A stretch of DNA of 21,480 bases, taken from positions 1 through 21,480 of IMG/VR virus record IMGVR_UViG_3300027771_001286, one strand, 5' to 3'. Below, piece after piece: positions 4,006 through 15,893 of this stretch; position 1 is the first letter of the stretch, and every line of letters begins with the position of its first letter. The notes below the pieces were generated by a model. It searched no databases. It had not been told where the DNA came from and worked only from the letters and a program-made list of their open reading frames with translations. The position numbers were made by a program, and so were the translations under genes. This stretch comes from a virus.

Positions 4006-4127
4006 AACCCACTCTTTCTTAGCTTATCTTCCATTAGTTCATCTGGTATCTTTTCTTTTACCGTAATGTCTTTCTCTACAGTAAACACATCAGGAAGTCC
4101 AGTGCTATTATTACGTTCCCCAGGCAT
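4002..4127 (-). CDS. Putative 41-residue mini-gene after queE
   Basis: An ORF of 41 codons starts within the last 17 bases of queE (MPGERNNSTGLPDVF) and ends in a TGA that overlaps the GTG of the histidine phosphatase gene (GTGA). It is charged (DITVKEKIPDELMEDKLRK) and fills an otherwise empty gap of 105 bases exactly, which fits the dense operon. No clear RBS is visible, so translation would depend on coupling with queE. The function is unknown, and the gene call is tentative. Confidence 0.5.
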   Translation of the reverse strand: MPGERNNSTGLPDVFTVEKDITVKEKIPDELMEDKLRKSGL

Positions 4128-4977
4128 TGCCGAAAACGTCGACATGAAGCCGGGGGGAGTAACGATAGCCTTTTTTAAGTGCCAGTTCTGCGACATCTTT
4201 TCCGTTTTTAAAATAACTTTCTGACGTGCCTCCGACAGCCATGAGGTATACCGGCGCTTGGACTCCATTGGATCCAAATACTGACACAGCCTTGTCAACT
4301 TCATCCACGTCCACAGTATCACATACCACAAACTTGAAATACAATTGACTATTAGGAATATCGCTGTAACTACGAGCAATGTCAGGCTTAATAGCGTCAT
4401 CCCAATCATGTCCACTAACCGATAATTTAGGGGAACATGACCATGTAACATGTATTCGCTGTGAATTTGTGAGATAAGATTTGAAATCGTTGTGCAGAGT
4501 TTGTGTGGTATTTGTTTCAAATGTAACATTTTTTAAGTCCTTCATACGAGGGTGTTCAAATAGTTCTGTATACATACGTTGCCATCCTAACAATGGCTCC
4601 CCTCCAGTAACTACTAAATGGATATCCTGACCATTCTCCTGTGTCCAACGTCCGTCTGGAGTTAAACTTAGTAAATGTTCTACTAGTCCGTCTACGTCTG
4701 TGTTATTTTGAAACTTCTTAAACGCAGGATGCCACGCTGCATAACTATCACATCCTGTTGTTGCTAGTGGGAGATCATCCAGTTTCTTATACTTTTCTGG
4801 ATTTTCCATAACTTCAGCAGCAATTTCATCTGGCTCATTGGTCTCTTGACCGCGCGGCAGTCCAAACCCAGGACACGTAAAGTTACATCCGTACATGCGA
4901 AGGAAAACACTGGGAACACCAGTAAATCTTCCTTCGCCTTGTACACTATAAAATGCTTCAGTGTATCTAATTTTCAT
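4111..4977 (-). CDS. queE: QueE, 7-carboxy-7-deazaguanine synthase (radical SAM)
   Basis: QueE rearranges 6-carboxytetrahydropterin to 7-carboxy-7-deazaguanine (CDG), the first 7-deazapurine in the queuosine pathway. The 288-residue protein has the N-terminal EAFYSVQGEGRFTGVPSVFLR substrate segment, cluster cysteines C31 and C35 (GCNFTCPG), a probable third ligand C76 (TTGCDSYA) after a long insertion, and the SAM-binding TGGEPLLGW at 124-132. Cellular QueE enzymes have a compact CxxxCxxC; the roughly 40-residue insertion matches phage QueE proteins from memory. It lies two genes after queD and works with FolE (12679-13365) and the DpdA homologue (14427-15893). The ATG has a GAGG-like RBS and starts ten bases after the preceding stop. 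Confidence 0.92.
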   Translation of the reverse strand: MKIRYTEAFYSVQGEGRFTGVPSVFLRMYGCNFTCPGFGLPRGQETNEPDEIAAEVMENPEKYKKLDDLPLATTGCDSYAAWHPAFKKFQNNTDVDGLVEHLLSLTPDGRWTQENGQDIHLVVTGGEPLLGWQRMYTELFEHPRMKDLKNVTFETNTTQTLHNDFKSYLTNSQRIHVTWSCSPKLSVSGHDWDDAIKPDIARSYSDIPNSQLYFKFVVCDTVDVDEVDKAVSVFGSNGVQAPVYLMAVGGTSESYFKNGKDVAELALKKGYRYSPRLHVDVFGNAWGT

Positions 4978-4986
4978 TGATGCCTC

Positions 4987-5244
4987 TTATTTTAATTTAG
5001 ATTTAAGATCTTTAATCATGTTTGGCTTGGTCATACGACGATCCAGTTCAACTCCTAGATCACGGCCATGCTCTTCAATCTTAGCTTTAGTCATTTTTGC
5101 TATATCTTTAGCAATCTTTACTTTTGCTTTTGCTTTTGCAGCTTTTTCTACAATAGCATCTGAAGCACCACTAGCAATAGCATCTAACGTGTCACTTGCA
5201 ACTTGAGGTGTTCTAGTAATCATATTCCATAGTTTATTAAACAT
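4987..5244 (-). CDS. Small Ala/Lys-rich helical protein between queD and queE
   Basis: This 85-residue protein starts MFNKLWNMITRT. GGAG lies six bases before this ATG, and the start overlaps the end of queD, so I prefer it to an ATG 30 bases upstream. The centre (residues 18-55) is a long Ala/Lys/Ile-rich amphipathic helix (EKAAKAKAKVKIAKDIAK), followed by a charged C-terminal part (GRDLGVELDRRM). It has no cysteines or signal peptide. The position between queD and queE suggests a link with deazaguanine synthesis, but I do not recognise it and it may be an unrelated small phage protein. Confidence 0.7.
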   Translation of the reverse strand: MFNKLWNMITRTPQVASDTLDAIASGASDAIVEKAAKAKAKVKIAKDIAKMTKAKIEEHGRDLGVELDRRMTKPNMIKDLKSKLK

Positions 5245-5710
5245 CATATTCTCCATCTTCTCTGTGACCAACACGCATTGCCATGTTGGCGTCTGTCTCT
5301 CTTACCTCTACTCTGGAACACCAAACACGAGTGCCTGGCTCATATGCTGGAAGAAAGATAGTGTTTATATATTCGTATAAGAAGTCAGATAAGCCTTCGC
5401 AACCTGATTTTTCAACTTCTGTAATCTTAGCAAGACCCTTCTTGCCAAGTTCTAGTAGTGTTTCGCGCTCTGGATCATCTTGGGCTACCAGTAGCGTATG
5501 GTCGAACCAATCTTCGAGATTGTCTTTTAGTGGACGCAATCCACCAAAATCAATAACCCAGTTTCGTGCATCTAAATCATCTGTTTCAAATTCAAAATGG
5601 AAACTTAAAGCGTATCCATGAATTAAGTTACAGTGACTATCTGCCCTCCACTGTCGATAACAGACTGGGCCTAGTTGTTTGTATGTTTTTGTGCTAATAT
5701 ATTTTGCCAT
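5237..5710 (-). CDS. queD: QueD, 6-carboxytetrahydropterin synthase
   Basis: QueD turns 7,8-dihydroneopterin triphosphate, the FolE product, into 6-carboxytetrahydropterin, the QueE substrate. The 157-residue protein has the T-fold motifs: WRADSHCNLIHGY (21-33), with H26 and H31 as zinc ligands and C27 as the catalytic cysteine spaced as in E. coli QueD; WVIDFGGLRPL (51-61); FDHTLL with D70-H71; and the C-terminal EVRET. The third zinc ligand of the usual HGH is Tyr33 here. I remember this HGY form from a proteobacterial and phage subgroup, so it is probably active. A strong RBS (AAGGAG) precedes the ATG, and a 102-base leader lies upstream, so this gene heads the queD-queE operon. Confidence 0.9.
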   Translation of the reverse strand: MAKYISTKTYKQLGPVCYRQWRADSHCNLIHGYALSFHFEFETDDLDARNWVIDFGGLRPLKDNLEDWFDHTLLVAQDDPERETLLELGKKGLAKITEVEKSGCEGLSDFLYEYINTIFLPAYEPGTRVWCSRVEVRETDANMAMRVGHREDGEYDV

Positions 5711-7322: not shown

Positions 7323-10300
7323 TTAGTAAGTCCAGTTAAGTTTAACACCAGCTGACCGCTGATTGTTTCCGTCTGTGCCGGCAACGTTTACACGCATTTC
7401 ACCAAACGCTGCCATCGAAAACCTTTGATCCACTTTGTAGTTTAAGAACAAACCAAAGTCATGTTCTAGAACCTGTGTGCTTGCGTCTGCACTCCCGGAA
7501 TCAAACTGCACTGCTCCGTCTACCGAACGTCCAGTAGGCACTTTGTAGTTCATACTACCACTCATTACGTGTAGTGGCTGACTATAAGTACCGCCCACTG
7601 TCCATCCTGCCGCTGGCTTAAAACCTAAGCCAGTGTTAAAGCTCTGACTAATTAAGCTACTGAATCCAGTAACTAGACTAAAGTCTTTGCTTGTTTCCAC
7701 ATCAGTAGTACCAATCTGGTAGTTACCAAATCCAAACACTTGGTCACTAAATTTATGACTAATGTTTAAACTTGCATACTGAGTTGTGTGATTTTCGCCA
7801 ACACCCATAAATCCTTCTTGGACGTTATTAAGAAACTTACCTGTTTCTTTAAGAAATCCTAATCCAAGATTAAGACTAGTTTCTTCATCTTCAAAGGCCT
7901 TATAGTTAGCGTTCAATGTATAGTCGCCTCCTGCGTTACTATTCATTTTCATGCTTGTGGAGAAACCCATGTATTCAGGAGTAGCGATGTTTTGGTTAGT
8001 ACCAGCAAGATTGCTATACGCATCGTATTTACCGCCACCAAATGCCAGTCCTTCAACATAACTTCCTGGACGGGTATCTACTGCCTGTGTCTGACTAAGA
8101 TCAACTGTAAAGTCTCTCTCAAACTCATCAAGCACTATAGCATTACTTAGTGCGGCAAATGCCCCTGGGTTAATATTACCAATTGCAGCACCGCCACTTA
8201 GGCTAGAGATACTACCGTCAGTACGCCCGCTTGTTGGGATACCAGTTGCGCCTACAGGCTGTGTTGCTTTATCTAGATCCAACAATCCTGAACCGTGTGT
8301 GTTAACATGATAACCAGCAATCGTCTTATCAGCAGTCTTAGTAACCAACTGAACAAGATTTTCGCCCTTCATGTGAGGCCACATTTGGTTTAGGATAGCA
8401 AGTGATCCAGCAACTACTGGAGTAGACATACTAGTACCAGTCATTATCTCGTTACCGCCACTTTTACTAGCACTTTCCAAAGCACTTCCTGGAGCAAGAA
8501 TGTAGAAGTCTGAAGTACTTTTTGCATCAGTACAAGAACCACTAACATAACTAGCACACATATGTCCTGCTTTGTTGCCAAGAATCTGTTTACTATCAAG
8601 ATTCCAGTTACCAACGATTAACATACGGCCGCCTAAAATAAGATTGCCGTCTGTGTCAGTAGCAGTAGCCATCTGTCCAGTGCCAGGAACATAATCGTAA
8701 CCATGATTACCTGCGCTGTTAACAAACACTTGCTCTGTACCCAGTGCCGTTGCGTATGAAGGAGCTTCGTCTGTTACTCCATTGTAACCATGCTTACTAT
8801 AAAAGTGATGACTACTATGGTACTTACCATCGCCATCATCTACAATACTAGATCTAAATGCACTATCAGTATTGTAGTTTGCACTAACACTAATTGCAAC
8901 TGCACCTAAGTCACGAGACCATGCCATGGCTTTTTTTGCACGACCAAAACTAAATGCAACCCCTTCAGAAATCTTAGCAACCGCAACATCAGCATCAAAC
9001 GCAACACCGTGTGTTCCAGTACCATTCTTACGACCAGCTGCAAGTCCAAGAACATGACTACCATGTCCATTACTATCGTTCATACTAGCATCTCCGTTGC
9101 CAGTAGTCTTAACATCAGTTAGTGTATTGTAGGTATACTTAACTGCACTGGATAAGTCATTATGATCTACATCATATCCAGTATCAGCAATAGTAATTAA
9201 ACTACCCTTGCCAGTCCAACCGCGACTGTAAGCATACTCTGCTTTAATGGCTGACTTATAGTTTTGACCATTATTTGAGCCATTAAACTCTGATGTGCGG
9301 TAGCTAGCTGGATCCGAATTAAAACCTGCTGTACGTGTACCTAGGTCAGCATGATCATTACCAACTGGAGTTACTGGTGCGGCTTCTTCAACAGCTTCTA
9401 CTGTTACTGAATTCTCACTCATAACCTTGGACCACATATCATTTACTACAGTATTTTCAGTAGCAACAGTTGTTACAGTATCACCACGAATCAACTCTAC
9501 ACGGTCATCTGTCCATGTCTGCTTAGTAACCGGAGTAGTCTTAGTAGTTGTAGTGGTTACAATAGTTGCTGTTGTAGTGTAATTACGTGTTATTGTCGTA
9601 GTCTTAACTGTGCCAACAGTATTGTCAGACGTAACATCATCATGCTCAGTAACAAACACTGGGTCTGCTTCTGTAACTGTAGTAATTACTTCGTTAGTAA
9701 TAACTTCATTAGCAACAATGTGCTCAGTAGACGAAGTATGTAATACTTCATTATCTGTAACTACTACATCATCCACAACTACTACATCCACTTGATCAGT
9801 AGCATCATCTGTAAACGTATGACCATCTGAATAAGTGTAAACAGTAACCTTAGGATAGGTAGTTGTAGTAGTAACAGGAGTAGTTGTTGTTGTGTTAGTG
9901 TTACGGAACGTCTTGTGCAAAATACTTGTATCGCTTTGCACTTCTTCTATTAAGCGATCAGTATATACATTCTCTACCGTGTCTGCTCCGCGAGTAACTA
10001 CTATCGTAGGTGTATTCTGAACATCAGTAGTAAACGTAATATTTTTACTCATCTCTTCAGAGGACACTTGTGCCTTAGCATCAAACGTTTGCTTGTTTTC
10101 AACACTACGTATAGCACCTTTATCTGTTTTCATAGTGCCATCACTAAAGACAGTAGTAGTAACGTTCTGTACCTTAAGGGTAAATGTACGATCATACTCC
10201 ATGTTCTTTGTAGTAGTTTTCGTCCATGTTGCAGTACGTGTTGTGTTACCAACACTATCACCACCAGTAAGAGTTTGCTCACCATTTGCAATGTCAGTTG

Positions 10301-10889
10301 TCTTGACACGCTCTGCTGAGTTAGTCGTTGCTGATGTTTCTACAGTTACAGAGCTAGTAGATGCACTGATAACAGTTGGAGTAGCGCCGTCAAAAATAGC
10401 TGCCTTCTTCTCCGTAATTTTACGGTCCAACGTTTCCTTCTTTGCGAGGAATTCAAAATCTTTTGTATCATAGCTGCCACCGTTGACAACTTTAGTAACT
10501 ACGGGCCGTAGATCTTCTTTGAGAATCTTAACAACAGCCTCAGCTTCTCTCCACTCTGCGGTGGATAATTTAACTGCAAGTAGTGTTGGGTTCATGCTGG
10601 ATTTATAATCGTCCCAGCTTTTAATAACGTTATCGATCTGAGAAACAACATTACCTGCCATTTTCACATCGTTTTCGTTAGGGTTAATTAGCGCACTGAT
10701 ACTAGCACTACTCTGTGCTACTGCAACCACTTTCTCCAATTCGGAGACTTGGCTACTGATAGCAGCAAAGGCACTATTCGTTGTCAATGCACTAGTAGCA
10801 CTTCTAACAGCATTTACACTATCGCCTGGATTACAAGCGGTAAGTGCAGTTGTTGCCATTAGAAGTCCAAGAGTGCTTCTAAGTTTCAT
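7323..10889 (-). CDS. Lipoprotein subtilisin (S8) with autotransporter barrel
   Basis: This 1188-residue protein has a lipoprotein signal peptide (LTAC, lipidated C19), then a helical segment (about 40-165) and a very Thr/Val-rich stretch (about 175-500). The subtilisin domain follows (about 555-875) with D569 (ITIADTGYD), H609 (NGHGSHV), oxyanion N728 (NSAGNHG) and S820 (TGTSMSTP). The C-terminal 220-260 residues are alternating amphipathic strands ending in LNWTY, with a terminal aromatic residue as in outer-membrane barrels. It should be secreted to the cell surface and act as a protease there or release itself. NalP and SphB1 are known lipidated subtilisin autotransporters. It has its own strong promoter and is uncommon phage cargo. 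Confidence 0.9.
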   Translation of the reverse strand: MKLRSTLGLLMATTALTACNPGDSVNAVRSATSALTTNSAFAAISSQVSELEKVVAVAQSSASISALINPNENDVKMAGNVVSQIDNVIKSWDDYKSSMNPTLLAVKLSTAEWREAEAVVKILKEDLRPVVTKVVNGGSYDTKDFEFLAKKETLDRKITEKKAAIFDGATPTVISASTSSVTVETSATTNSAERVKTTDIANGEQTLTGGDSVGNTTRTATWTKTTTKNMEYDRTFTLKVQNVTTTVFSDGTMKTDKGAIRSVENKQTFDAKAQVSSEEMSKNITFTTDVQNTPTIVVTRGADTVENVYTDRLIEEVQSDTSILHKTFRNTNTTTTTPVTTTTTYPKVTVYTYSDGHTFTDDATDQVDVVVVDDVVVTDNEVLHTSSTEHIVANEVITNEVITTVTEADPVFVTEHDDVTSDNTVGTVKTTTITRNYTTTATIVTTTTTKTTPVTKQTWTDDRVELIRGDTVTTVATENTVVNDMWSKVMSENSVTVEAVEEAAPVTPVGNDHADLGTRTAGFNSDPASYRTSEFNGSNNGQNYKSAIKAEYAYSRGWTGKGSLITIADTGYDVDHNDLSSAVKYTYNTLTDVKTTGNGDASMNDSNGHGSHVLGLAAGRKNGTGTHGVAFDADVAVAKISEGVAFSFGRAKKAMAWSRDLGAVAISVSANYNTDSAFRSSIVDDGDGKYHSSHHFYSKHGYNGVTDEAPSYATALGTEQVFVNSAGNHGYDYVPGTGQMATATDTDGNLILGGRMLIVGNWNLDSKQILGNKAGHMCASYVSGSCTDAKSTSDFYILAPGSALESASKSGGNEIMTGTSMSTPVVAGSLAILNQMWPHMKGENLVQLVTKTADKTIAGYHVNTHGSGLLDLDKATQPVGATGIPTSGRTDGSISSLSGGAAIGNINPGAFAALSNAIVLDEFERDFTVDLSQTQAVDTRPGSYVEGLAFGGGKYDAYSNLAGTNQNIATPEYMGFSTSMKMNSNAGGDYTLNANYKAFEDEETSLNLGLGFLKETGKFLNNVQEGFMGVGENHTTQYASLNISHKFSDQVFGFGNYQIGTTDVETSKDFSLVTGFSSLISQSFNTGLGFKPAAGWTVGGTYSQPLHVMSGSMNYKVPTGRSVDGAVQFDSGSADASTQVLEHDFGLFLNYKVDQRFSMAAFGEMRVNVAGTDGNNQRSAGVKLNWTY

Positions 10890-10998: not shown

Positions 10999-11286
10999 TT
11001 ATTTTTTGTTAAGTAGATCCCATGCTACATAATGTTTCTGGAGATCTTTAAATTCTTCCCATTTAGCCTGTAACTCAGGGTGTTCCCCACATAATTCAAT
11101 GTCTATATAGTAACTATTTTCCCTAACAGCCTTCATGATTGGGTCTGACTTGTCAAATCTAGATGGGGTTGGCTTAATCTGCACCCTATTTTCATGTGAG
11201 TCACCAAAATCTTTTGCGAACACTGTTAGGCCACCATCCGGAGATTCGTAAATTTTTGGGTTTACTTTTGCTGTAAAATTTGCCAT
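10999..11286 (-). CDS. Small hypothetical protein
   Basis: This 95-residue protein begins MANFTAKVNPKIYES. This start, four codons inside the longest reading, has GGAAAG six bases upstream. The first half is beta-like (GGLTVFAKDFGDSHENRVQI), the second half helical and charged with several aromatics (WEEFKDLQKHYVAWDLL). It has a single cysteine and no signal peptide. It overlaps the upstream HAD gene by 25 bases and ends just before the 109-base promoter region, so it closes the folE-cytochrome-phosphomannomutase operon. I do not recognise it. Confidence 0.65.
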   Translation of the reverse strand: MANFTAKVNPKIYESPDGGLTVFAKDFGDSHENRVQIKPTPSRFDKSDPIMKAVRENSYYIDIELCGEHPELQAKWEEFKDLQKHYVAWDLLNKK

Positions 11287-11948
11287 GTTTCTTTCCAATC
11301 TTTAACGTGTGATACTTTACAGTTGCGTCTATTTTTAAGTCTGCTTGCAATGCTGTGGTCATTGCCTCCTGGCTCGCAACGGTCACCAAAAAAGTGTATG
11401 TCTTGTCCACGGAAGTATTTTAATGATTGTGATTTGTCATAGCCTTTAGGGTAGACATCAATTCCTGTTTCTCCCCCAACACCAGCAGTTAACTCAGGGA
11501 ACAAAGTCCTAATCGTAACACAAAGTCTGTGTCGTTCGCCAGAAATATTATCCCAGTTAAAGTAATCTGTTCTTTGATTGCCAACTGCATTCCTGCCCAC
11601 TATGCTAAAATTAAGTGACCCTGGCCTTACTTCTATATGATTCCCATACGCATGTTTGTATTCACTGTCTGCTAAACATTTGTTAAGTACATCTACCAAT
11701 TTATCGCTGGGTGTCCAGTTGTTTCTTGTTAAACTTACTCCGTTACGGTAAACATCACTACCACTACAATTAAAACAGTAACGTGCTTGATCAAATACAT
11801 CCTGCCCTAATTGTTCAACAGTTTTATCCACATCACTTCCAGTAATTAAACTAAAGTCAGGAAGTGTCTTAAAGAATTTTTTAAAGTCTGGGTCCATTAA
11901 TCCCCTGCTGGGGGTTAGTGTACCATCCACATCGAATAACAGTATCAA
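11262..11948 (-). CDS. Phosphomannomutase-like HAD protein (eukaryotic PMM type)
   Basis: This 228-residue protein carries the eukaryotic-type phosphomannomutase pattern of HAD IIB enzymes: catalytic D6 and D8 in FDVDGTLTPSR, the cap substrate site VRPGSLNFSIVGR (R108, N113, R119), GGETGIDVYPKGYDK (158-172) and the metal site HFFGDRCEPGGND (185-197). PMM converts mannose-6-phosphate to mannose-1-phosphate on the way to GDP-mannose; some relatives are sugar phosphatases. The length is near that of PMM (about 245). The start is TTG, right after the cytochrome stop, with GGAAAA upstream and DxDGT at the normal position. It fits the sugar genes at 16.5-19.1 kb and could feed the glycosyltransferase. 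Confidence 0.85.
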   Translation of the reverse strand: MILLFDVDGTLTPSRGLMDPDFKKFFKTLPDFSLITGSDVDKTVEQLGQDVFDQARYCFNCSGSDVYRNGVSLTRNNWTPSDKLVDVLNKCLADSEYKHAYGNHIEVRPGSLNFSIVGRNAVGNQRTDYFNWDNISGERHRLCVTIRTLFPELTAGVGGETGIDVYPKGYDKSQSLKYFRGQDIHFFGDRCEPGGNDHSIASRLKNRRNCKVSHVKDWKETWQILQQK

Positions 11949-12380
11949 TTACTTTTCCACTTCTGGTTGCATGGATTTTAGATATACAATGGTTGCGGCA
12001 CGTTTCTTTTCTTTTTTCTCACGGAACCCCATTTTCGTACCTTTAACTAATTTTTTACTCTTAGTAAGCCATTGGTCCATTAACTCAACAGTCCATACAG
12101 GATTCTCTTCTGCCCATGCTCTAAACTTCTTACTATACTTGTAGTCTTTATTTTGAGCAGTGCCGCGGTTAAAGACATCCCAGAGGTTTGGGCCCATCTT
12201 GTTTTTGCCATCTTCGTTAATGGTGTGGCAGGATACACACTTTTTAAATGATTTTTTATCTATTGGTATTAACCTAACCTCTGCCCACGATGGCGTAACT
12301 ATTAACGCTGTTATTACTAGTACCCATAGTATAACCTGTGTTGCTATTATTGCTGGTGTTGATAGTAAATTTTTTAACAT
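11949..12380 (-). CDS. Periplasmic c-type cytochrome (class I)
   Basis: This 143-residue protein has a long hydrophobic N-terminal signal or anchor (about 10-32, with SWA-E as a possible cleavage site). The haem-attachment CVSCH is at 48-52 (C48, C51, H52) and the axial methionine is M117 (VKGTKMGF). GPNLWDVFNRG, the YSKKF segment and the C-terminal AATIVYLKSM helix match mitochondrial c/c2-type cytochromes. It would carry electrons in the periplasm after haem attachment by the host maturation system. The ATG follows the preceding TAA directly. A full-length cytochrome c in a phage operon is unusual. It has all key residues, so it looks functional rather than decayed. Confidence 0.9.
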   Translation of the reverse strand: MLKNLLSTPAIIATQVILWVLVITALIVTPSWAEVRLIPIDKKSFKKCVSCHTINEDGKNKMGPNLWDVFNRGTAQNKDYKYSKKFRAWAEENPVWTVELMDQWLTKSKKLVKGTKMGFREKKEKKRAATIVYLKSMQPEVEK

Positions 12381-12665
12381 TTAATTAGAATGTCCTTTCT
12401 CAAAAGTAGGCATTCCGTATTTGCCATTATCTAATGTATCGTCTGTAGCAACATCGAACATGTACCCAAAGTTCTTTCGAAGACACTCAAGTTTATCCTC
12501 TGCTTGAGTTAGCTTAATGATTGCTCCGTCCAACTCTCTCAACTTATACGCTTCGCCTAGATTAACTGGCATATAGTTAGGCTTGTTATTCTTAATAAAT
12601 CCAGTTATGGCTTCTTTGCAAGATGCCACGTCTTCTTCATATTGTTTCTGTAATGCATTAATCAT
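12381..12665 (-). CDS. Small helical hypothetical protein
   Basis: This 94-residue protein begins MINALQKQYEEDVASC. The ATG has a GGAG site eight bases upstream, whereas a longer in-frame reading would run into folE. The first two-thirds are predicted helices rich in Glu, Lys and Leu (LRELDGAIIKLTQAEDKLECL), the rest a polar Gly-rich tail (MPTFEKGHSN). Two cysteines (16 and about 62) are too far apart to form a visible motif. It lies between folE and the cytochrome gene, with no gap to the latter. The function is unknown. Confidence 0.7.
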   Translation of the reverse strand: MINALQKQYEEDVASCKEAITGFIKNNKPNYMPVNLGEAYKLRELDGAIIKLTQAEDKLECLRKNFGYMFDVATDDTLDNGKYGMPTFEKGHSN

Positions 12666-12678
12666 TGTTTTTCTCCTT

Positions 12679-13365
12679 CTACTTACATACAAATCCTTGC
12701 TGAAGTTTAATGTTGTCCATAAACTCTTTCTTACAACCAGGATCGTTATGGAAACTACCACGCAAGATAGTTGTTTGTGTTAAACTGCTAGTGGCCATAA
12801 TGCCGCGGTTCTCACAACATCCATGAGTTGCGTGTATATAGACACCAACGTTATTACTGCCTGTAGCTTGTTGAATCTCATTGGCAATAACCATGTTAAG
12901 TTCTTCTTGCAACGTTCCACGTCTAGCACACCATTGTGCAATTCTTGTGTATTTACTTAGGCCAATAAGTGTATCAGCAGCAATAATGCCAATGTATGCA
13001 ACTCCACTTACAGGCTGATGGTGGTGTGAACAGATACTTTTTATCTCACTGCGAACTACTAACATGCCATCATAACTATCAGTAGTGTTAGGAAATGCAG
13101 TGGCCTTAGGACGTGGTGTATATCTACCACTCATAGTCTCATTAATATACATCTTGGCAAGACGTCTACCAGTGTCCATGCTGTTTGGATCATTCTCTTT
13201 ATCGATTACCAAACTGTCTAGTACTGCTTCAAACTTTGGAGTAAGCTCTTCAATAAGTAGATCTGTCTCACCATCAAGTATAAACTCGCTAATATTGTCA
13301 CCAGCCCAGTAACGAGCGCCGGACTTTTGTATTCGTTCTTTAATAACTTCGGAAGTCTTTGTCAT
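12679..13365 (-). CDS. folE: FolE, GTP cyclohydrolase I
   Basis: FolE converts GTP to 7,8-dihydroneopterin triphosphate, the first step shared by folate and 7-deazaguanine synthesis. The 228-residue protein has zinc ligands C112 and H115 (ICSHHHQPVSG) and C183 (THGCCENRG), plus the T-fold core GLSKYTRIAQWCARRGTLQEEL (135-156) and VGVYIHATHG. The length is normal (about 220). The N-terminal 50 residues are less conserved. RBS AGGAAC lies about nine bases before the ATG. With QueD, QueE and the DpdA homologue in the same window, a role in making a modified guanine for phage DNA is far more likely than folate supply. Confidence 0.93.
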   Translation of the reverse strand: MTKTSEVIKERIQKSGARYWAGDNISEFILDGETDLLIEELTPKFEAVLDSLVIDKENDPNSMDTGRRLAKMYINETMSGRYTPRPKATAFPNTTDSYDGMLVVRSEIKSICSHHHQPVSGVAYIGIIAADTLIGLSKYTRIAQWCARRGTLQEELNMVIANEIQQATGSNNVGVYIHATHGCCENRGIMATSSLTQTTILRGSFHNDPGCKKEFMDNIKLQQGFVCK

Positions 13366-13368
13366 ATA

Positions 13369-14430
13369 CTATGTTCCTAATAAAGTGTTAATCATAGTAC
13401 TACTTGATAGGTAGTCTTTGATTAGTATTTGTTGCTGTTGTTTAATTAAATCTTGATAGTCAGCAAAGTTATCAAGGCGTGTGTTAATAAATTCTACTAG
13501 TTGATCTCTGTGATGGATAAACTGTTCGTAGTTTTCTGTCCATTCTCTTGGATACTTAAACTCTGGTAAGTACATCTCTGCATAACTGCAACGGTCAGGC
13601 ACGATGGGAACGGCCCCTGTAAGTACTGCTTCCATTACACTAATACCTAAATTTTCATGTAATGCACAACTAAAGATAGCTTTACTAGTACCCATTTTAG
13701 CATAGTAATCAGCTTTATCCAAATTCATTTTCTGTGTGATTACCACATCAAAATCGTTTAATAAGTTTTCAGCAATCTCAGGCTGTTTGTCGTCGTTGTA
13801 ACGATGCGGCCACATAACAGTGTTTTGTTTATCTGTGCTTTGATACTGTGTTAGCGAGTCAACAATAAGCTCATGTGGTTGTCCACTACGGATTGCTTTG
13901 TGATGATATTCTTCTGGAATGTTTAAGTTCTTTAAAAACATGCTTCTGTGGCTCTCACTAGCATAATAGTTGTAATCACTACTATGGAACCAACTAGTCT
14001 CAACATGACTAGGCCAGGGCTTTTGCATCTTATAACCCAATATATCACTGGGATCATAAGCACCAGCATGCCAAATACTATGGATCTCTACTGGAATCTC
14101 CAGTAAGTCACTCATGTATTTGATAGGCGTAATAATAAAGTTCCATGCATCAGTAATTAGGAACTTATCACCGGCTTTAATTCTGCCATGACTAAACCAA
14201 CGACTTACTTGTTCAGTTTGCGATGCCTTGTAAACATTAGTTGCCCCAAAGTCTAAAAACGCACCTGAGCTAGTCTTATCTTCAATTCCAGCACCGTATA
14301 CAGTGACCACTTCATAGTCCAGATTTTGCTGGGCAATATTCTTTTGTAGCATTTTAGGAATATTATCATACCATTGTCTTGTGTAACGCTGATCAATAGG
14401 TTCAATAGGGATAATGTAAATGGTGTTCAT
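13369..14430 (-). CDS. GT-B glycosyltransferase coupled to the DpdA homologue
   Basis: This 353-residue protein looks like a GT4-type GT-B glycosyltransferase. The C-terminal half has VMWPHRYNDDKQPE (205-218) and the sugar-nucleotide site FSCALHENLGISVMEAVLTGAVPIVP (253-278), with E259 and E267 as the usual acidic pair. The N-terminal half (acceptor domain) is less clear, with WHAGAYDPSDI around 120-130. The arrangement WxHRxxxDKxPE and ALHExxGxxxxEAVxxGxxPxxP recalls, from memory, the queuosine mannosyltransferase QTMAN (GTDC1). Its ATG overlaps the DpdA stop as ATGA, so the two are probably made together. A role in glycosylating deazaguanine is inference; it could instead modify surface glycans. 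Confidence 0.78.
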   Translation of the reverse strand: MNTIYIIPIEPIDQRYTRQWYDNIPKMLQKNIAQQNLDYEVVTVYGAGIEDKTSSGAFLDFGATNVYKASQTEQVSRWFSHGRIKAGDKFLITDAWNFIITPIKYMSDLLEIPVEIHSIWHAGAYDPSDILGYKMQKPWPSHVETSWFHSSDYNYYASESHRSMFLKNLNIPEEYHHKAIRSGQPHELIVDSLTQYQSTDKQNTVMWPHRYNDDKQPEIAENLLNDFDVVITQKMNLDKADYYAKMGTSKAIFSCALHENLGISVMEAVLTGAVPIVPDRCSYAEMYLPEFKYPREWTENYEQFIHHRDQLVEFINTRLDNFADYQDLIKQQQQILIKDYLSSSTMINTLLGT

Positions 14431-15893
14431 CGTTCATCGTCCTCTTCCTGTGTGCTATCAATGTCAGTATTAACCGGAGTTGCATCACCAAAACTAAACA
14501 AACTATCAAAAGTGTCACTGTTCTTGAGGTTTTTCTTACGGCTTAGTTTCGCAATTAACTTCTCGTGCTTTAGTAGTTCAGCATCAATAGCCGCCATGCT
14601 ACCGCCATAGTCTTTCTCAAACAAACTTTCGCATACTTGACTAAACTCGATATACTGACTTGGAACCCAGGGATTGATACCATGTGTGCGTGTCATTAAC
14701 CTGTTTGCCATCTGTACACTGTCAATGTGTTTGTAGATATTATGTCCCATCATTAAACAATAAGCAAAACTATCCCAGCTTGTTTTACCTTCTTTACCAA
14801 TCTTATTTAGGTCGCCGGGATCATACCAGTTAATATCTTTCCATGTTAAACGCTCACCAATTGGACTATCATCCCAGGGCCAAGGAGCATCTTTACCTTG
14901 TGGGTCCTTTTCATCCACCATGTGTACCATGTTGTAGCCGATACGTTTTTCATCAAAGGTGTTGTGTGTGTAAACCTGTCCATTAGCAGTTGCAATAAAC
15001 GGGCTAGCACAATCCATACTAATAGTAAGATTAGGATTAACATGCTTTCTAATAGCACGTTGCATAGCAGTATACATAACTCCTTGATCTAATCTACCTG
15101 TGCCCAAGAAGTGTATCCACTCTGAGTTTTCTAGGATCTTTAGTTCCTTTAGATAAAGTAATCGACGTAGACTGTGGTTAACCATTGTTTTCTGGATACC
15201 ACCAAATGCCCAGCCACTTGTTTCACCAACTACTGGCAAACATACCTTATCAAACCAATCGTCTGCTTGTGCGTATGTACTACCCTGGCAGACATTTAAG
15301 AACTTCGTCTTACCCTGGCGATGGTTAAAGAAATAGTTGTTATTAGCAATAGTTGCGTCTCTAAACTCGCCATAATCATTAAGTCCACACTTGGGCTTGC
15401 CAGTTACTTCATCAACAAAGTTTAATCCGTTAGTAGGAATATCTAGTACCATACTATAGTCTGCTGTATTCTCTAACCAGTTTAATACTTTGCCGCGAGT
15501 CTTATCCGTTTCAGTACATTCCCCTTCTGGCTCAAGCCAATTGCCTGACCAAACACCCTTGCTAATTTGAAAGCCGCCACTGTCGCCAATTAATGTAGTA
15601 AAGTTCTTGTCGCGGCCATGGATCATGCCTTCCTTGGCTGGTGCTTTGTTCATGTCTAGTTCAGCATGCCCTGCACTATACAATACATGATCATATGTAA
15701 AGTAACCTGCTTCTGGATTTAAGAAGTTTAGCCCTTCAAGACCGTTTTCAAACTTAGCTGGAACTCGGGATGGTTCTACGTGATTAGGATTAACTTGTTG
15801 CTTGCTGACATAACTGCTATAAAACCCGCTTAGTGCTGGAGTAAAGACAGCGTAGTCATGATTCTTCTTACTTAGATCTATCTTGTTTGTCAT
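14427..15893 (-). CDS. dpdA: DpdA-like 7-deazaguanine DNA transglycosylase
   Basis: This 488-residue protein is a tRNA-guanine-transglycosylase homologue of the DNA-modifying DpdA kind, which exchanges guanine in DNA for a 7-deazaguanine base. The two catalytic aspartates are in place: D104 in GDSGGFQISKG and the nucleophile D294 in ISMDCASPF. MVLDIPTNG (148-156), VCQGSTYAQA (201-210), GWAFGGIQ (227-234) and HFLGTGRLDQG (261-271) match TGT core positions. The zinc-binding CxCxxC of tRNA enzymes is absent, and the length exceeds bacterial Tgt (about 375), as in phage DpdA. The last 30 residues are acidic and flexible. It follows a near-consensus promoter and is coupled to the glycosyltransferase by ATGA. 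Which base it inserts cannot be read from the sequence. Confidence 0.88.
   Translation of the reverse strand: MTNKIDLSKKNHDYAVFTPALSGFYSSYVSKQQVNPNHVEPSRVPAKFENGLEGLNFLNPEAGYFTYDHVLYSAGHAELDMNKAPAKEGMIHGRDKNFTTLIGDSGGFQISKGVWSGNWLEPEGECTETDKTRGKVLNWLENTADYSMVLDIPTNGLNFVDEVTGKPKCGLNDYGEFRDATIANNNYFFNHRQGKTKFLNVCQGSTYAQADDWFDKVCLPVVGETSGWAFGGIQKTMVNHSLRRLLYLKELKILENSEWIHFLGTGRLDQGVMYTAMQRAIRKHVNPNLTISMDCASPFIATANGQVYTHNTFDEKRIGYNMVHMVDEKDPQGKDAPWPWDDSPIGERLTWKDINWYDPGDLNKIGKEGKTSWDSFAYCLMMGHNIYKHIDSVQMANRLMTRTHGINPWVPSQYIEFSQVCESLFEKDYGGSMAAIDAELLKHEKLIAKLSRKKNLKNSDTFDSLFSFGDATPVNTDIDSTQEEDDER

Follow-up and report, generated by a model that had tools for sequence, protein, structure and literature searches.

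A family of phage-encoded class I cytochromes c suggests that phages of heterotrophic marine bacteria help to run host respiration

The gene at positions 11949 to 12380 (minus strand) of the window, our name for a 21,480-base IMG/VR record, is a genuine phage gene and encodes a class I cytochrome c of 143 amino acids. It belongs to a family that recurs on uncultured viral contigs, and the DoxX-family and alternative oxidase (AOX) genes beside its relatives suggest that the phages carrying it help to run host respiration during infection. We think it somewhat probable, reasoning from sequence, that the protein would be exported and supplement the one-electron carriers of the host periplasm.

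Results

The gene coincides exactly with one intact open reading frame (ORF). Its product scores 33.1 bits against the class I cytochrome c profile PF00034 (cut-off, 21.3) and aligns over the whole core with the PDB sequences of mitochondrial cytochrome c and bacterial c552, while a search with the cytochrome c-550 CycA equivalog (NF043008) gave 54.3 bits and did not reach the cut-off of 240. The protein has both the CxxCH heme motif and the distal axial Met of a class I cytochrome c. On the minus strand, the heme-attachment motif CVSCH (residues 48 to 52) is encoded at positions 12225 to 12239 and the axial Met117 at 12030 to 12032. A GPNLW motif occupies residues 63 to 67, and the axial Met stands in KGTKM, after which comes the phage-type shortened loop GFREKK. 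Two CxxCH motifs occur in window ORFs of 60 or more codons, and only the one described here has a cytochrome context around it. The AlphaFold model (mean pLDDT, 74.6) was matched by Foldseek to cytochrome c with an E-value of 7.6e−6 and, among the matches listed, TM scores of 0.62 to 0.75 depending on the target; as modeled, the protein has the cytochrome c fold. Residues 1 to 33 (12282 to 12380, minus strand) form a signal-like hydrophobic N-terminus, with a helix at residues 5 to 27 in the model, and end in SWA; by eye, SWA-E resembles a signal peptidase site. This N-terminus looks like a signal peptide, and export and covalent heme attachment are predicted. The earlier note had described CVSCH, the axial Met and the signal peptide as intact, and all three were borne out, the signal peptide as judged by eye.

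All genes in the window point in one direction, and the GC content is even throughout. Directly upstream of the cytochrome gene is an ORF of 94 amino acids (12381 to 12665, minus strand) with no family match in profile and PHROG searches, the TAA of which abuts the cytochrome ATG. The cytochrome TAA in turn directly abuts the TTG of a phosphomannomutase/HAD-like gene (11262 to 11948, minus strand; PF03332, phrog_29277). The GTP cyclohydrolase I gene folE, also identified by profile and PHROG searches, is in the same row (12679 to 13365, minus strand). Thus, of the placement between folE and a phosphomannomutase given in the earlier note, the downstream side is right, but the 94-amino-acid ORF separates folE from the cytochrome gene. 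Neither folE nor the phosphomannomutase gene says much about the role of the cytochrome. Phages with the cytochrome also have a phrog_29277 gene in common with the window, in one contig close to gp43, and the window protein has 41 to 43% identity to their proteins in the best matches. Our searches found no AOX, DoxX or C18 gene in the 21,480 bases of the window. Elsewhere in it are a queE-like gene (4111 to 4977), a queD-like gene (5237 to 5710) and a gene for a 488-amino-acid protein (14427 to 15893), which we take to resemble DpdA-type transglycosylases and which, among phage proteins, best matches ones from Pseudomonas jumbo phages that are annotated as "hypothetical". Together with folE, these genes likely constitute a 7-deazaguanine DNA modification set. 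The window also encodes a subtilase-type protein of 1188 amino acids (7323 to 10889; PF00082, phrog_3677), large for a phage, with a lipoprotein-like start.

Relatives of the cytochrome are encoded on 58 IMG/VR contigs besides the window (two viral-contig scans, with 47 and 58 loci); these are not 58 independent cases, because contigs from one site can be one virus. The window and the first-scan loci contain 26 distinct core sequences. Of 15 larger records searched, six carry the T4-type capsid gene gp23 and five a terminase gene. We recognised no capsid, terminase or other structural gene in the window, so the assignment of its cytochrome gene as a phage auxiliary metabolic gene by hallmark genes rests on the records of these relatives. 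The nearest annotated phage to the gp23 and terminase of cytochrome-bearing records is C48C1 (66 to 70% identity), which is filed under Kyanoviridae and whose record names no host. At least one of eight T4-type replication/recombination marker genes is present in the fetched flank of 30 of the 58 loci. The common arrangement is gp45, gp44, gp62, regA, then hsp20, the cytochrome gene and the DNA polymerase gene gp43; gp45, gp44, gp62, regA, Hsp20 and gp43 were confirmed by PHROGs in one representative. In other arrangements the cytochrome gene comes after the gp41 helicase gene, after a ribonucleotide-reductase-like gene (by eye) or near uvsX. On the viral contig L005 (1124 to 3838), the genes flanking it encode a PF00909 ammonium transporter and a PF00848 subunit of a ring-hydroxylating oxygenase. 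Among the 50,697 phage records of INPHARED, the window protein had no match, and the protein of locus L042 had merely a weak, irrelevant match in two records of phage phiM9. Such a gene, called unusual in the earlier note, is indeed so among annotated phage records but recurs among contigs of uncultured viruses.

A tree thinned from 103 to 61 rows contains a branch (support, 100/100) that separates the 21 phage rows from 40 cellular ones. All 40 come from alphaproteobacteria, and those of SAR11 group in a clade of their own. The loop at the axial Met is one residue shorter in 26 of 26 phage cores and in 0 of 77 cellular proteins; in the latter it is full-length in 75 and of a different form in 2. 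Tree and loop count drew on the window, the first-scan loci, the second-genome-scan sequences and fetched plasmid loci that matched a pattern. They leave out L002 and L003 as repeats, L051 to L058 (the gp23 and terminase loci) and the 11 contigs that were new in the second viral scan; the pattern was not matched by L050 (truncated), L063, L065, L067, L079, L099, L110, L116, L121, L133 and L134. Two loci from the second viral scan do not fit the clade: L184 has a cellular-type loop, and L185 is distant. Their sequences suggest separate acquisitions and hence more than one uptake of cytochrome c by phages. The cytochrome gene in L184 (3075 to 4056) directly follows a peroxiredoxin-like gene (by eye).

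The first scan of cellular genomes found no relative. In the second, none of the best 80 of 573 relatives exceeds 53% identity, and these closest cellular relatives are alphaproteobacterial, many of them from SAR11; among the matches listed from 398 sampled Pseudomonadota genomes, identity is at most 52%. The phylogeny that the earlier note had proposed for finding the donor brought out the alphaproteobacterial relationship but no donor species, because the phage clade branches outside every cellular sequence sampled. The phage copies are under purifying selection and thus maintained, with dN/dS values of 0.09 to 0.29 in the 11 usable close phage pairs of 13 computed (of the other two, one lacked synonymous changes and the second was saturated). 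An alignment of 15 phage proteins shows conservation of CxxCH, GPNLW, the axial Met and Trp/Tyr. The mean net charge of the core is +6.8 in phages, +8.6 in SAR11 and +2.2 in other alphaproteobacteria; the basic phage core, like that of SAR11, would therefore be suited to docking on the same partners.

A DoxX- or AOX-type gene adjoins the cytochrome gene in 25 of the 58 relatives. DoxX-family membrane proteins account for 23 loci, often with an overlap of a few bases with the cytochrome start, and all three neighbors tested passed the Pfam cut-off for DoxX. AOX is the upstream neighbor in two loci (E-values of 1.2e−80 and 3.2e−77). One and the same slot, after hsp20 and before the cytochrome gene and gp43, holds AOX in L034 and DoxX in L017. 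The fetched flank of 26 of the 58 loci contains none of AOX, DoxX and C18, in some cases owing to the contig end. Among 27 large viral records chosen for carrying cytochrome c, AOX or DoxX, AOX is present in 8, DoxX in 13 and both in 0, an exclusivity that is a hint only because this selection favors it; cytochrome c is present in 14, of which 7 carry DoxX and 1 carries AOX. Viral contigs contain relatives of AOX at 341 loci and of DoxX at 405 loci, with a cytochrome gene nearby in 2 of the 80 listed AOX loci and 7 of the 80 listed DoxX loci. In 17 rows of phage DoxX, two His and other polar residues are invariant, and a fold search with the DoxX protein returned no solved relative. The contigs L155 and L159 encode near-identical neighboring proteins, with DoxX and C18 around the cytochrome gene in L159 only, a difference that amounts to a gain or loss in nature. 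The small membrane protein C18, which has two helices, adjoins the cytochrome gene in 14 of the 58 loci; it was considered as a third partner and rejected, as 56 of the 80 listed C18 loci have no cytochrome, AOX or DoxX gene in the flank.

In an AOX tree of 54 rows, in which phage rows more than 90% alike were thinned and from which 8 of 108 loci, including that of C48C1, were missing after failing a motif pattern, the phage AOX proteins form a clade that encloses one cellular row. A cellular AOX with 74% identity to the phage form (L398, 8019 to 8621) is nested in this clade; its gene is close to an integrase-like gene, and the genes near it are presumably a Zorya defense system. The AOX gene of phage C48C1 (L145, 26279 to 26830) is annotated only as a hypothetical protein and adjoins clamp-loader genes.

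Discussion

How would a phage use a cytochrome c? We hypothesize that the host cytochrome c maturation machinery attaches the heme and that the phage protein is then reduced by the host bc1 complex (or by a dehydrogenase) and oxidised by a host cytochrome oxidase, whereby respiration and ATP supply would go on through the lytic cycle. In related phages AOX, and possibly the DoxX-like protein, would play a comparable part at the level of quinol. The heme ligands, the export-type N-terminus, the SAR11-like basic surface and the respiratory-type neighbors of the relatives fit a periplasmic shuttle, and the cellular relatives point to marine alphaproteobacteria as the likely hosts. The earlier note had already proposed that respiration is kept going during infection; this gains from the DoxX and AOX genes beside the relatives and from the alphaproteobacterial kinship, but not from the window's own neighbors, which are uninformative. 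AOX is a quinol oxidase and bypasses cytochrome c. The two are therefore not in series, and their pairing makes better sense as two means by which the chain and the quinone pool stay oxidised than as a single pathway. Several observations count against a respiratory shuttle: AOX, DoxX and C18 genes are absent from the window and from the fetched flanks of 26 of the 58 loci, some of which stop at a contig end, 78 of the 80 listed AOX loci and 73 of the 80 listed DoxX loci have no cytochrome gene nearby, and the shortened Met loop could shift the redox potential or the choice of partner. More tentatively, and with slightly less confidence than we would need to favor it, we propose that T4-like phages of heterotrophic marine alphaproteobacteria share an interchangeable toolkit of cytochrome c, AOX and DoxX-like protein. 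The set would often occupy one constant position among the replication genes, and AOX and DoxX would be mutually exclusive quinol-side valves.

The cytochrome could instead be the dedicated electron partner of a phage membrane redox protein, DoxX-like or other, on a side branch that does not top up the host chain. The adjacency of DoxX in 23 of the 58 loci, often with a few bases of overlap, the invariant His and polar residues of the 17 phage DoxX rows and the phage-specific Met loop all speak for such a partnership. We nevertheless consider it unlikely: many loci, the window among them, have the cytochrome gene without DoxX, L155 and L159, with near-identical neighboring proteins, differ in its presence, and the fold search gave DoxX no solved homologue. 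Less probable still is a function in protection against oxidative or nitrosative stress, as a peroxidase donor or scavenger, rather than in respiration. AOX is often tied to limiting reactive oxygen, and the separate phage cytochrome of L184 stands directly downstream of its peroxiredoxin-like gene; however, the neighbor survey, in which clusters were named by eye or by family, revealed no recurrent peroxidase beside the main clade.

By far the least probable explanation is that a host gene is carried by chance or that the contig is chimeric. The earlier note would have abandoned its phage reading for a contig chimeric with a bacterial genome and lacking phage homologues. In favor of chance carriage or chimerism, the window has no recognised capsid or terminase gene. 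Against it stand 58 further viral contigs, several with capsid or terminase genes, one well-supported clade under purifying selection, T4 genes alongside, and the even GC content and single gene direction of the window. We regard chimerism and contamination as ruled out by the viral contigs, the gp23 and terminase records, the phage clade and the T4 genes in the flanks. With a respiratory shuttle as the preferred reading, a phage-only clade of respiratory-type cytochromes c with AOX and DoxX-like neighbors in relatives would extend management of the electron transport chain to phages of heterotrophs. Whether lytic growth in abundant marine bacteria is limited by electron flow thereby becomes a testable question.

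The phage proteins resemble the respiratory cytochromes c of alphaproteobacteria (the SAR11 copy in G016; Paracoccus c552, 1ql4) in fold, heme motif, axial Met and basic surface, but have only about 50% identity to them and a shorter Met loop. The SAR11 copy (179 amino acids) has a longer, anchor-like N-terminus and a linker, whereas the phage copies have a short signal-like N-terminus.

Other phage genes touch on the same processes. A phage-borne soxD, described on two viral contigs as a sulfur-enzyme subunit with heme motifs partly missing, is likewise a c-type cytochrome carried by phages (PMC8190135, available part); in contrast, no sox genes were recognised at the cytochrome loci studied here. 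The phage 5-ALA synthase vAlaS is also proposed to sustain respiration, together with tetrapyrrole supply, but makes a heme precursor and is no electron carrier, as far as the available part of PMC11480375 describes it. Cytochrome oxidase and NADH dehydrogenase genes are reported in viromes in the available parts of PMC3474794 and PMC3877843. For phages with denitrification genes, the accessible portion of PMC8115048 reports that electron carriers, cytochromes included, were not seen; the family described here means that another group has one. By title and abstract start, no recognisable paper on a phage-encoded soluble cytochrome c was found in the open PMC literature, a weak negative. Phage electron-transport genes are already known as a kind, and the soluble cytochrome c family is a new variation.

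To our knowledge, such genes are known chiefly from cyanophages. PTOX is related to AOX, and plastocyanin, the petE product, is a copper protein. According to the available part of PMC3037559, plastocyanin and PTOX occur jointly in T4-like cyanophages, as members of a hypothesized mobile cassette. The likeness lies in the T4-like backbone and in the combination of a small soluble one-electron carrier with an AOX-type quinol oxidase. Here, an AOX gene adjoins the carrier gene in 2 of the 58 loci and not in the window; the carrier is a heme protein related to those of alphaproteobacteria, and photosystem genes were not recognised nearby, whereas the cyanophage pair serves cyanobacterial photosynthesis. 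By analogy, the phage cytochrome family would be the heterotroph counterpart of the plastocyanin/PTOX pair and the toolkit, if true, a second, independent answer to the problem that cyanophages meet with that pair.
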